A DNA stretch of 64,000 nucleotides from Paracoccus zhejiangensis (GTDB lineage: Bacteria; Pseudomonadota; Alphaproteobacteria; Rhodobacterales; Rhodobacteraceae). How positions within the stretch are numbered: the stretch's first letter is position 1; the number at the start of each line of letters is the position of its first letter. Position numbers and translations under genes: made by a program. The notes under the pieces were generated by a model that searched no databases, was not told where the DNA came from, and was given only the letters and a program-made list of their open reading frames with translations. Shown one piece after another: positions 3,889 through 59,175 of this stretch. The stretch is taken from NCBI RefSeq assembly GCF_002847445.1, contig NZ_CP025430.1:434001-498000 (forward strand). The letters are read 5' to 3'.

Positions 3889-4562
3889 ATGTCGACTTCG
3901 TCGAATATCCCGACCGCGAGATGCTGGCGCTGATCCTGGCCGACAAGCTGGCCAGCCAGCTGGGCCAGCATCTGCGCACCAACCAGCAGGCAAGCCTGTG
4001 TGTTCCCGGCGGCACCACCCCGGCGCCGGTCTTTGAATCGCTGAGCGCCACCGACCTGGACTGGGACCGCGTGACCGTGGTTCTGGGCGACGAACGCTGG
4101 GTCCATGGCGAGCATCCGCGCTCGAATTCGCGGCTCCTGCGCCGGCATCTTCTGAAGGACGAGGCGGCGGCGGCGAATTACATCGACCTCTATACCGGCG
4201 ACGCGACGCCCGATGAGGCGCTGCCGGGCCTCTGCGCCCGGCTGGAGCCGGTCTTTCCGATCACCGTGGCGCTTCTGGGCATGGGCAATGACATGCACAC
4301 CGCGAGCCTCTTTCCCGGTGCCGATCATCTGGCCGCCGCACTGGCCCCCGATGCCCCGCCGGTGCTGGCCATCCGTGCCGAGGGTGCCGACGAGCCGCGC
4401 ATCACCCTGACCGCACCTTACCTTCGCAATGCCATCAACCTGCATCTGCTGATCACCGGTCCGGAAAAGCGCGAGGCCTTCGAGCGGGCGCAGAAGCTCG
4501 ATCCGCTCGAGGCGCCGATCCGCGCCCTGATGGACAATCTCACCGTGCACTGGGCCGAGTGA
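3885..4562 (+). CDS. pgl: 6-phosphogluconolactonase
   Basis: This 225-residue cytoplasmic enzyme hydrolyses 6-phosphogluconolactone, the product of Zwf. Family motifs are GGTTP (residues 42-46), the DERW motif (69-72) followed by an Asn/Ser/Arg-rich loop, and a central [16 protein letters not shown]. That loop has Asn-Asp-Met where many homologues have Gly-Xaa-Asp-Gly-His. Its ATG overlaps the zwf stop by four bases, so this internal start is preferred over an upstream GTG-like one. It stands between zwf and pgi in a single operon. Confidence 0.93.
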
Positions 4563-4600
4563 CGGCCTTACCCCGATCGTTCCCCCGGAAAGGACCCGCC

Positions 4601-6214
4601 ATGTCTGACTGGACAAAGCTGAAATCGCACCGCGCCACGCAGAGCGAGACCCGGATCACCGACCTGTTCCTGACCGATGCCGACCGCGCCACTGGCTATG
4701 CGGTCGCGGCCGGGGGGATGGTGTTCGACTATTCCAAGACCCTGATCGACCGGGCCGCGCGGCAGATGCTGATCGCGCTGGCCGAGGGCGCGCAGGTCGC
4801 GGACCGCCGCGAGGCGATGTTCTCGGGCGCGAAGATCAACGAGACCGAGGATCGCGCGGTGCTGCACACGGCGCTGCGGAACCTCTCGGGTAGCGTCATG
4901 GTCGACGGCAAGGATGTCATGCCCGAGGTCCGCGCCACGCATGAGCGGATGAGCGCCTTTGCCCGTGACGTGCGCACCGGCATCTTCCGGGGGCAGGGCG
5001 GGGCGATCACCGATATCGTCAATATCGGCATCGGCGGCTCGGACCTCGGCCCGGCCATGGCGGTGCTGGCGCTGGCGCCCTATCACGACGGGCCGCGCGC
5101 GCATTTCGTCAGCAATGTCGATGGCGCCGACATCCATGACACGCTGGCCAGGCTGAACCCGGAAACCACGCTGGTCATCGTGGCGTCGAAAACCTTCACC
5201 ACCATCGAGACCATGACCAACGCCAAGACGGCGAAGGACTGGATGGCGAAAACCGTGCGCGATCCCGGCGCGCAATTCGCAGCCCTCAGCACCGATGCCA
5301 ACCGCACCGCCGCCTTCGGCATCGATGGCGCGCGGGTTTTCGGTTTCGCCGATTGGGTTGGCGGGCGCTATTCCATGTGGGGACCGATCGGGCTGTCGCT
5401 GATGATCGCCGTCGGACCCGAGCATTTCGACCAGTTCCTCGCCGGCGCGGCCTCGATGGATGATCATTTCCGATCTGCGCCCTTCGAGCAGAACCTGCCG
5501 GTCATGCTGGCGCTGGTCGGCATCTGGCACAACCAGGTCTGCGGCTATCCGACCCGCGCCGTGCTGCCCTATGACAACCGGCTGATGCGCCTGCCGGCCT
5601 ATCTGCAGCAGCTCGAGATGGAATCGAACGGCAAGGGCGTCGGCATGGACGGCAATGACCTGACCGTCGCCTCGGGGCCGGTGGTCTGGGGCGAGCCGGG
5701 CACCAATGGCCAGCACGCCTTCTATCAGCTGATCCATCAGGGCACCGCCGTCATTCCCTGCGAGTTCATCCTTGCCGCGCGCGGCCACGAACCGGATCTG
5801 GCCCATCACCACATCCTGCTGGCCGCGAACTGCCTAGCGCAGTCCGAGGCCCTGATGCGCGGGCGGTCGCTCGATGAGGCGCGCAAGCTGATGGAGGCCA
5901 AGGGGCTGCAGGGCGCGGAGCTGGAGCGTCAGGCGCGGCACCGGGTCTTCAAGGGTAACCGCCCGTCGACCACGCTGTTGATCGAGGAACTGACGCCGCA
6001 TGCCCTGGGGCAGATCGTGGCGCTGTACGAGCACCGGGTCTTTGTCGAAGGGGTGATCCTCGGCATCAACAGCTTTGACCAATGGGGGGTCGAGCTTGGC
6101 AAGGAACTGGCGCTGAAGGTCGAGCCGCTGCTGAAAGGCGAGGATGCGCCGGGGCATGATCCCTCGACGGTGCATCTGGCCGAACTGGTGCGCGAGATGC
6201 GGGGCGAGGCATAG
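4601..6214 (+). CDS. pgi: Glucose-6-phosphate isomerase
   Basis: This 537-residue enzyme interconverts glucose-6-phosphate and fructose-6-phosphate. It has the PGI signature [14 protein letters not shown] near residue 253, the active-site region MESNGKG, and the C-terminal signature around [10 protein letters not shown] that carries the catalytic Lys. The start at 4601 has AAAGGA at 4589-4594. It is the third gene of zwf-pgl-pgi; in an Entner-Doudoroff organism it mainly cycles fructose-6-phosphate back to glucose-6-phosphate. Confidence 0.96.
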
Positions 6215-6222
6215 TTAGCTTT

Positions 6223-6269
6223 GGCCCGTGCGACCAGCACGGGCCGCGCCGACCCTCCCATCGGGAGGG
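6223..6269. terminator. Two tandem hairpins after pgi
   Basis: The first is a perfect 9-bp stem GGCCCGTGC / GCACGGGCC (6223-6231 with 6237-6245, 5-base loop). The second is a 7-bp stem CCCTCCC / GGGAGGG (6253-6259 with 6263-6269). They lie directly behind the pgi stop, where a terminator is expected, but neither is followed by a clear T-run. Function as terminator or mRNA 3' protector is therefore inferred. Confidence 0.45.
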
Positions 6270-9124: not shown

Positions 9125-9133
9125 AGCGGGAGA

Positions 9134-9269
9134 GGGCCGGCGGGCGACCGCAGGGTGGCCGCTGCGGCAGTTGATCCGAGAACCTTTATGGTGCCAGTAC
9201 ATCGAACAGTTGTTCGGCGCTTAACCGCACCAAAGCGGCCGCCCCAGGGGGGCGGTCGGCCGCTGGCCC
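9134..9269 (-). repeat. Dispersed palindromic element, copy 1 (136 bp)
   Basis: This is a diverged copy, in reverse orientation, of the element at 16812-16946 and 59031-59165. Its ends form an 18-bp inverted repeat with two mismatches (from 9134 against up to 9269). On the minus strand it keeps the conserved CGCTTTGGTGC and CTGGCACCATAAA blocks, and the centre is a CGAACA / TGTTCG hairpin. It fills the space between the convergent ftsY and the small periplasmic protein gene, so it could also act in transcription termination. Confidence 0.65.
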
Positions 9270-9310
9270 GGGCGGGCTTCGCCCTCGTTCCCGGGCCGGG
9301 CCTGCAGGCG

Positions 9311-16192: not shown

Positions 16193-16777
16193 ATGGCGGA
16201 TCAGAGACCGGCACGCAGGCGCAATGCCGAGGAGACGCGCAGCGCCATTCTGGCCTCGGCCCGGAAGGCCTTCGCCGAAAGCGGCTATGACGGCGCCGGG
16301 CTGCGCGGCATTGCCGAGGCGGCGGGGGTGACGGCGATGATGGTGGGGCGCTATTTCGGCTCGAAGGAGCAGCTTTTTGCCGAAGTGGTCGCCGATACCA
16401 TGCGCGACCCGGTGATCCTGTCGGCGGAGAATCTCGGATCGCCGCAGATGGCGCGGGAGTTCGCCCGGGCGCTCGTTGGCCTCAGCACACCGGGGCAGGC
16501 GGTGCTGGACGGGTTCCGGGTCATGTGGGCCTCGGGTGGCAGCGAGGTGGCGGCGCGGATCGCGCGCGAGCAGATCATGGCGGTGCACCACGCCACGGCC
16601 CAAGGGCTGGTCCGGGGCGATCACGCGCCCGAACGCGCGGCGATCCTGTTGTCGCTGGTGGCGGGGGTGCAGTTGATGCGCCAGCAAATCGGTTTGCCGG
16701 CACTGGCCGATGCCGATCCCGAGGTGCTGGCGGGGCTGCTGGAGCCGGTGATCGCGGCGGTGCTGGGGGTGGCGTAG
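16193..16777 (+). CDS. TetR-family transcriptional regulator
   Basis: This 194-residue repressor has the N-terminal TetR helix-turn-helix: RSAILASARKAFAESGYDGA, then LRGIAEAAGVTAMMVGRYFG with SKEQLF. The C-terminal ligand-binding part is hydrophobic and of usual length. Two ATG codons stand in tandem; 16193 is better spaced from AAGGGG at 16181-16186. It is divergent from the SDR gene, with a palindrome between them, so it probably represses itself and the reductase until an organic ligand binds. Confidence 0.88.
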   Translation: MADQRPARRRNAEETRSAILASARKAFAESGYDGAGLRGIAEAAGVTAMMVGRYFGSKEQLFAEVVADTMRDPVILSAENLGSPQMAREFARALVGLSTPGQAVLDGFRVMWASGGSEVAARIAREQIMAVHHATAQGLVRGDHAPERAAILLSLVAGVQLMRQQIGLPALADADPEVLAGLLEPVIAAVLGVA

Positions 16778-16811
16778 CAGACCCGGCCCGGATGCGCCGC
16801 GCAAGCGGCCC

Positions 16812-16946
16812 GGGCCAGCGCCTGCCCGTTCCGGCGGGCTGGCGCTTTGGTGCCGCTGGTCCCGAGTTCAGGGAGGCGAGGGACTTGGCGCCATAAAGCG
16901 CGCAGGCGTGCCGGTGCAGCGCCACCCCACGGGCCGGCGCTGGCCC
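16812..16946 (+). repeat. Dispersed palindromic element, copy 2 (135 bp)
   Basis: This element lies in the 286-bp gap between the TetR-type gene and fabF; I see no gene in that gap. Its ends form an 18-bp inverted repeat with one mismatch (16812-16829 and 16929-16946). Inside, GCGCTTT and AAAGCGC, then GTCCC and GGGAC, form further stems. The stretch CACCCCACGGGCCGGCGCT and the CCATAAA block are shared with the copy at 59031-59165. The arms differ between copies but remain complementary. Confidence 0.75.
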
Positions 16947-17063
16947 TCTGTGCGGCCGGATTGTCGCGCGGGCGTGAGCCGGTGCGGGGCAGGCCGGCGT
17001 TGCGCGCTATGCACCCCGCGTGTATCAGGTCAAAAAAGACGGGCAGATCAGAGGAAGACGCGG

Positions 17064-22116: not shown

Positions 22117-22162
22117 CCGGGGCGCTGCCCCGGACCCCGGGATATTTTTGCCAAGATGAAAT
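22117..22162 (+). repeat. Rhodobacteral intergenic repeat, copy 1 (inside GTA operon)
   Basis: A GC hairpin GGGGCgctGCCCC is followed by CGGACCCCGGGATATTTTTG and CCAAGATGAAA. The same pattern, GC hairpin then CGGACCCCCG...GGATATT, recurs at 45323-45370. From general knowledge this is a common intergenic repeat of Rhodobacteraceae genomes. Here it sits in the gap between the terminase and portal genes. Confidence 0.6.
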
Positions 22163-58989: not shown

Positions 58990-59030
58990 GGTCCGCAGAC
59001 CTCGCCCGGAACAAGGCACGCAGTGCCGCC

Positions 59031-59165
59031 GGGCGAGCGCCGGCCCGCCCCACCGGGCTGGCGCTTTAGTGACGCTGGTCCCGCGTTCAGAACGACGAGG
59101 GACCTGGCACCATAAACCGCATCGACGAACGGTTGCGGCGCCACCCCACGGGCCGGCGCTCGCCC
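59031..59165 (+). repeat. Dispersed palindromic element, copy 3 (135 bp)
   Basis: The ends are a perfect 17-bp inverted repeat (59031-59047 and 59149-59165). Inside are GGTCCC/GGGACC stems and an apical CGTTCagAACG hairpin, with the shared blocks CTGGCACCATAAA and CCACCCCACGGGCCGGCGCT. Length equals copy 2 exactly. It occupies the gap between the convergent dehydrogenase and aroB genes. Confidence 0.75.
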
Positions 59166-59175
59166 TTCGCCGCGC

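Follow-up and report, generated by a model that had tools for sequence, protein, structure and literature searches.

Several families of short repeats are close to the element described here. REP sequences are extragenic, are present in high copy number, carry palindromic arms and pairs of arm units in inverted orientation, and lie at gene 3' ends, and REPIN/RAYT systems are characterized by palindromes with a conserved tetranucleotide at their foot. RIME elements are also palindromic. These RIME elements of rhizobia are alphaproteobacterial intergenic mosaic repeats according to a title cited in PMC2873474. The ERIC and RU repeats of enterobacteria, of 127 and 168 bp, are MITE-like, intergenic and presumed to be mobile, according to the abstract of PMC2759123.

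The window analysed here (the whole stretch of DNA, 64 kb long) contains three copies of a folded repeat that an earlier note had proposed to form a dispersed intergenic family. A covariance model of this family (R2, built from 88 Paracoccus copies in eight genomes) recovered exactly these three copies within the window, and their coordinates and strands had been correctly given. As whole units they lie at 9128..9305 on the minus strand (copy 1, 134.8 bits), at 16777..16952 on the plus strand (copy 2, the focal copy, 128.2 bits, model positions 1-175) and at 58995..59171 on the plus strand (copy 3, 149 bits). Once the opposite-strand echoes of copies 1 and 3 (two in all) are discounted, the next-best place in the window scored 15.6 bits (E = 0.73). 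Genome searches extended the family well beyond three members. In fact, a blastn search with the 135 bp of the focal copy found 18 further places of 129-136 bp in its own genome, copy 3 among them (40 candidates scored), and because both blastn and the covariance model find many further genomic places, a chance origin is ruled out. The 135-bp element exists as it had been described, but the alignment of copies with their flanks revealed that conservation runs ∼35 bp further upstream, into a 5' hairpin that had been missed. As this hairpin is common to nearly all copies, the true unit is ∼170 bp long and not 135. No conservation was seen in the 30 bases outside either end of the unit in copies from different genera.

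At the focal copy, on the plus strand, the 5' hairpin occupies 16785..16816 (arms 16785-16791 and 16810-16816), mostly beyond the coordinates first assigned to the element. Its right arm overlaps the outer helix, and therefore the two structures are mutually exclusive at the overlap. The outer helix corresponds to the terminal inverted repeats that had been claimed, which measure 17 bp at this copy: the 5' arm at 16812..16828 pairs with the 3' arm at 16930..16946 (17 pairs, with 89.8% of cells paired in the 88-copy alignment and four significant pairs in the cross-genus alignment). Inside it, an inner helix of 11 pairs joins 16836..16846 to 16918..16928 (84.7% of cells paired in the 88-copy alignment, one pair being GC in 46, CG in 26 and AU in 14 of the 88 copies), and the arms of a central hairpin, GGTGCC at 16849..16854 and its partner at 16887..16892, form 6 pairs (73.3% of cells paired in the same alignment). 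The end of the central 3' arm is overlapped by a conserved CCATAAAGC motif at 16891..16899, in which ATAAA is near-invariant across genera. This description replaces a first structure obtained with RNAalifold, which was given up after larger alignments had been made. In addition, a solo hairpin, GGCCCGTGC-GACCA-GCACGGGCC, is present as a perfect copy at window positions 6223-6245, 8 bases beyond the end of an ORF at 4559-6214. It is the 5' hairpin of one subfamily, and it also occupies sites in the sister genome (see below) in place of the element.

The arms had been said to differ between copies while remaining complementary within each of them, and the CGAG/CTCG versus CCAG/CTGG swap on which this was based is genuine and recurrent, with the outer-helix pair concerned being CG in 59, GC in 19 and AU in 4 of the 88 copies. 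We evaluated covariation against our own phylogeny-aware simulation (60 replicates), a home-made version of the R-scape idea. In the 88-copy alignment, 7 of 14706 pairs were significant: one lies in the outer helix, and the other six are every pairwise combination of four columns, drawn singly from the four matching arms. A cross-genus alignment was made from 95 matches, from which 6 repeats, echoes or fragments were removed to leave 89 copies, the majority of them from different genera; here 5 of 14878 pairs were significant, namely one local pair and four long-range outer-helix pairs in which the changes are truly compensatory. Furthermore, the long-range covariation score of the rod was 0.251, compared with a mean of 0.104 for shuffled alignments (none of 500 shuffles reached 0.251), and it fell to 0.04-0.06 when the pairing was slid by 1-3 columns. 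The pairing is therefore real, and covariation supports a long rod made up of the 17-bp outer helix, the inner helix and the central hairpin. Neither a lack of further copies nor insignificant covariation, either of which the earlier note would have taken as evidence against a family, was what the model search and the phylogeny-aware null returned. The co-change of the arms had been read as the sign of a conserved structure; the covariation is indeed significant, but it stems in part from four-way matching among repeated arms.

Significant covariation, together with the unpaired A-rich motifs that are conserved in the cross-genus alignment, could indicate a structured RNA family, either a 3'-UTR RNA or an sRNA. 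The changes along the cross-genus tree bear on this possibility. Leaving out one noisy pair, we counted ∼73 changes from one standard pair to another, 12 to G-U, ∼33 to A-C and ∼59 to other mismatches, so that on the plus strand A-C exceeds G-U (∼33 versus 12 inferred events, p = 0.0025). In the 88-copy set the ratio of G-U to A-C was 117 to 111 over the outer, inner and central helices. As the strand that was read shows no enrichment of G-U pairs, RNA selection on the plus strand is not supported. Seen from the minus strand, an A-C excess on the plus strand is a G-U excess, and an RNA could thus be encoded there, but the excess is modest and absent from the inner helix of Paracoccus copies (14 versus 16). 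Moreover, Rfam has no match to the element, a search for sigma-70-like promoters found none at the focal copy, and the orientation of copies relative to neighbouring genes shows no clear preference. Taking into account also the exchange of family members at shared sites described below, we consider a structured RNA quite improbable. In consequence, the conserved structure (RNA or cruciform) of the earlier note stands as regards compensatory pairing, but not as regards an RNA selected on the strand read, given the surplus of A-C mismatches and the occurrence of copies in either orientation.

The number and distribution of copies were explored with two models. With 150 candidates scored in the own genome, a first covariance model (R1, 20 copies) returned 64 rows at E <= 1, of which 48 are distinct places at E <= 1.2e-6, 3 are short places with weak scores (E between 0.003 and 0.56) and 13 are opposite-strand echoes; dropping the echoes leaves 51 sites, all on contig 1. 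As many as 23 of the 51 lie between 268000 and 671000 of this contig, within about a tenth of the chromosome. R1 members were found in 6 of the 61 genomes of a set of relatives, all six among its 37 Paracoccus genomes. The broader R2 model matched at least 167 of 394 Rhodobacteraceae genomes at E <= 1e-5 (nearly all of different genera; 227 had no match at the stricter filters), and at least 150 of the 347 of good quality. These family-wide figures and copy numbers are floors, because only 7 candidates were scored per genome under strict filters. Rhodobacteraceae is used here in the GTDB sense; NCBI places one of the matching organisms in Paracoccaceae. In a class-wide sample of 289 genomes the only match was the own genome, the rows listed including three other Rhodobacteraceae genomes without a match. 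When 150 candidates were scored, 8 of 17 genomes with named loci matched: Lutimaribacter pacificus DSM 29620 with 75 rows and Roseovarius sp. MMSF_3359 with 73 (both with 150 candidates scored and opposite-strand echoes included), and six others with one or two rows each. According to the record titles, the nine that did not match comprise four relatives inside the family and five outgroups. Four further single-chromosome genomes carry 12 to 28 copies each. Three plasmid records also match; that of Pacificitalea manganoxidans does so at 4 places, and the match displayed covers no annotated gene. No match was obtained in phage records. All these data show that the spread within Rhodobacteraceae is wide but patchy. 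In three genomes, neighbouring copies in the same orientation were seen 41-70 bases apart (L079 1285-1679, L280 1501-1897 and L335 1257-1674).

The intergenic placement of the copies, mostly at gene 3' ends, was borne out, although these contexts are approximate because genes were called with a crude codon-usage model. In the own genome, 26 of the 51 copies have convergent neighbours, 24 have co-directional ones and none has divergent ones, with one undetermined. When the 50 copies with both neighbours called were compared with 201 background gaps of 20-600 bp (38 convergent, 110 co-directional, 53 divergent), convergent contexts were enriched (p = 6.5e-6) and divergent ones depleted (p = 2.8e-6). 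The sister genome gave 23 convergent, 24 co-directional and 6 divergent sites of 53, and among 86 cross-genus copies the 78 with both neighbours called were 37 convergent, 38 co-directional and 3 divergent. Co-directional copies face either way (20 versus 18 across genera, 15 versus 9 in the own genome). Orientation along the replichore was also examined: in the own genome 21 of the 26 convergent-flank copies are co-oriented with replication (p = 0.0025, origin and terminus placed by eye), as are 37 of 51 under a skew-only partition (p = 0.0018). This orientation was set aside as a family trait because it was not significant in any of four other genomes (19/28, 10/24, 14/21 and 7/12).

The enrichment at convergent junctions, with both stop codons within 20 bp of the unit in 16 of the 26 convergent own copies, could be explained if the element were a functional gene-end module, for example a transcription barrier or a protector of mRNA 3' ends, which would fold in transcripts arriving from both sides and in which the hairpin would be selected while its sequence could be exchanged. 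Its being palindromic on both strands fits such a role, as does the presence of another hairpin instead of the element at several sister sites. T-rich sequence beyond the element, which behind a GC stem would correspond to an intrinsic terminator, points in the same direction in the cross-genus set: at least 5 T in some 8-base window past the plus-strand 3' end were found in 27 of 94 copies versus 10.6% of random flank windows (p = 1.6e-6, against a background that is mostly coding), and at least 5 T in the 8 bases right behind the plus-strand outer helix in 9 of 94 versus 2.4% (p = 0.00055). On the minus side, T-rich windows were not enriched (13 of 94, p = 0.31), and 2 of 94 cross-genus copies had at least 5 T in the 8 bases right behind the outer helix. 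However, the own and sister genomes show no T enrichment (7 of 95 on either side versus 5.7%; right behind the outer helix, 2 of 95 on the plus strand and 0 of 95 on the minus strand), no terminator-like site was found at the focal copy, at one site (L251 vs L304) the sister has a stem and a T-run but no element, and many Rhodobacteraceae genomes are without any copy. We therefore regard a gene-end module as rather unlikely.

The comparison with a sister genome, that of the uncultured Paracoccus sp. isolate 2B1-2-40-2-J, whose flanks are mostly 92-97% identical, allowed us to follow individual sites. The search of this genome gave 55 rows, 2 of them echoes, and thus 53 distinct sites. Flank matching yielded 38 same-orientation pairs, after one weak cross-match between neighbours was dropped, and 4 inverted pairs, after two cross-matches between neighbouring sites were dropped, so that the sister has a copy at 42 of the 51 own sites. 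Among the 31 same-orientation pairs in which both copies are long, the ortholog was the nearest of the 50 long sister copies in 19, and in the remaining 12 it ranked between 8 and 45, that is, another family member is present at the site. Six further shared-site pairs combine a long with a short copy, and in one both copies are short. In one inverted pair the two copies are the same element in opposite directions (89% identical, rank 1), and the other three rank 13, 16 and 28. Another 20 sites are occupied in only one genome (9 own, 11 sister), and we read 15 of them by eye from the alignments (L106, L114, L119, L257 and L268 were left out). At these 15, the other genome has unrelated sequence in 2 (focal site included), short remnants or the scar of a deletion in 3, a solo hairpin, or one closely similar to it, in one or the other orientation in 4, and a junction at which no element can be recognised in 4; synteny is broken at the remaining 2, which abut the same own-genome junction. 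An intact matching counterpart is lacking for all three window copies: at the site of copy 1 the sister has a short form of 85 bp that shares the 5' hairpin, at that of the focal copy ∼180 bp of unrelated sequence after a TetR-like gene, and at that of copy 3 a different family member, 81% identical and ranking 15 of 50. It is thus shown that sites shared between sisters differ in presence, member, length and orientation. The sister sequence that replaces the focal element holds a motif similar to GGATATTTTTGCCAAGATGA, which is itself found at window positions 22140-22159 (pattern with up to 3 mismatches: 0.02 expected, 2 found); for the GGATATTT motif the result rests on a pattern search of the 64-kb window.

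This turnover could also be due to old repeats exchanged by recombination, through gene conversion between copies or imported intergenic regions, with little or no present transposition. Two pairs have a mosaic look (L056/L226 and L060/L225), with a different 5' hairpin region and a nearly identical remainder, and the four-way matching of the arms would fit copying, or quasi-palindrome correction, between arms. This explanation has to face the opposite orientation at 4 shared sites, the 20 sites at which only one of the two genomes has a copy and the changes in the bases just beyond the unit in several of the 12 displayed pairs, and we consider it unlikely.

We lean instead, with modest confidence, to the view that the element represents a new family of non-coding, non-autonomous mobile palindromic DNA repeats in Rhodobacteraceae, of the REP/REPIN or MITE type. 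This is the best fit because at many sites the place is kept while the content changes, presence is patchy and promoters are avoided. If the element were useful as an RNA or terminator, its sequence or orientation should be conserved at a given gene; many sites differ, even if 19 of 31 pairs are conserved. The unit consists of an inverted pair of palindromic arms around the ATAAA core plus the 5' hairpin, with one strand foldable as a long rod. Copies may spread as DNA via a palindromic, probably single-stranded hairpin intermediate, which would be recognised by an enzyme encoded elsewhere in the genome. Insertions would survive where promoters stay unbroken, at 3' ends and convergent junctions; re-occupied sites could arise if such junctions, or the hairpins resident in them, were favoured targets, and decay by slippage deletion across the palindrome may produce the short forms and scars. 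A more specific version, which we put forward only tentatively, is that an incoming copy replaces the resident one in place, by means of an enzyme that would act on folded single-stranded DNA and would be directed to resident hairpins or to 3'-end junctions; inheritance would then concern the site and not its content. Against mobile repeats, ectopic gene conversion or the exchange of whole intergenic regions could also replace copies at one site, and the conservation of core and architecture across ∼170 genera, together with the plus-side T enrichment outside these two genomes, hints at a function. In addition, a target-site duplication is not clear at the sister sites read, where the junctions have diverged, and no mobiliser was found in a search of the Y1 family. 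The Y1 transposase (PF01797) is absent from both the own and the sister genome, and a RAYT partner for the element is therefore unsupported. PF01797 was detected in 2 of 14 genomes examined (G007 and G014), as IS200-type copies, beside which the model search found no element. These Y1 genes (L309, L310 and L311, IS200-type by reading) have pieces in different frames or an internal stop, and they carry hairpins of their own, unlike the element family.

Many members of an ecologically major group carry the element, in numbers that reach dozens per genome and mostly at gene ends, and the pattern of kept sites and swapped content between sister species offers a natural way to assay the movement of small palindromic repeats and probes what convergent-gene junctions tolerate or need. 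Regarding known families, it had been stated that no named element has this form, and we found none in Rfam or in the openly licensed literature searched: Rfam has no match in the window, on 20 loci its matches were limited to a cobalamin riboswitch and a tRNA that lie outside the element, and three weak matches were far below the cut-off. As far as the model search goes, the element differs from RIME in that the class-wide sample matched the own genome only, and it resembles RIME in being alphaproteobacterial, intergenic and palindromic. With ERIC and RU it shares the size class, the intergenic location and the presumed mobility, but it was found here only in Rhodobacteraceae, and the distinction from them is one of distribution. 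Unlike MITEs, it shows no clear target duplication at the diverged sister junctions and, in the Y1 family searched, no parent transposon; like them, it is short, non-coding and dispersed, with terminal inverted repeats in the form of the 17-bp outer helix. Its ∼170-bp unit, extra hairpin and conserved ATAAA core, and the lack of a Y1/RAYT gene in host and sister, distinguish it from REP/REPIN sequences. Nevertheless, it resembles REP/BIME and REPIN in being extragenic, of high copy number and located at gene 3' ends with palindromic arms in an inverted pair: across genera long-range pairing dominates over four-arm matching, and within Paracoccus the arms a1, a1', a2 and a2' match and covary, as corresponds to the inverted pair of palindromic units that defines a REPIN.
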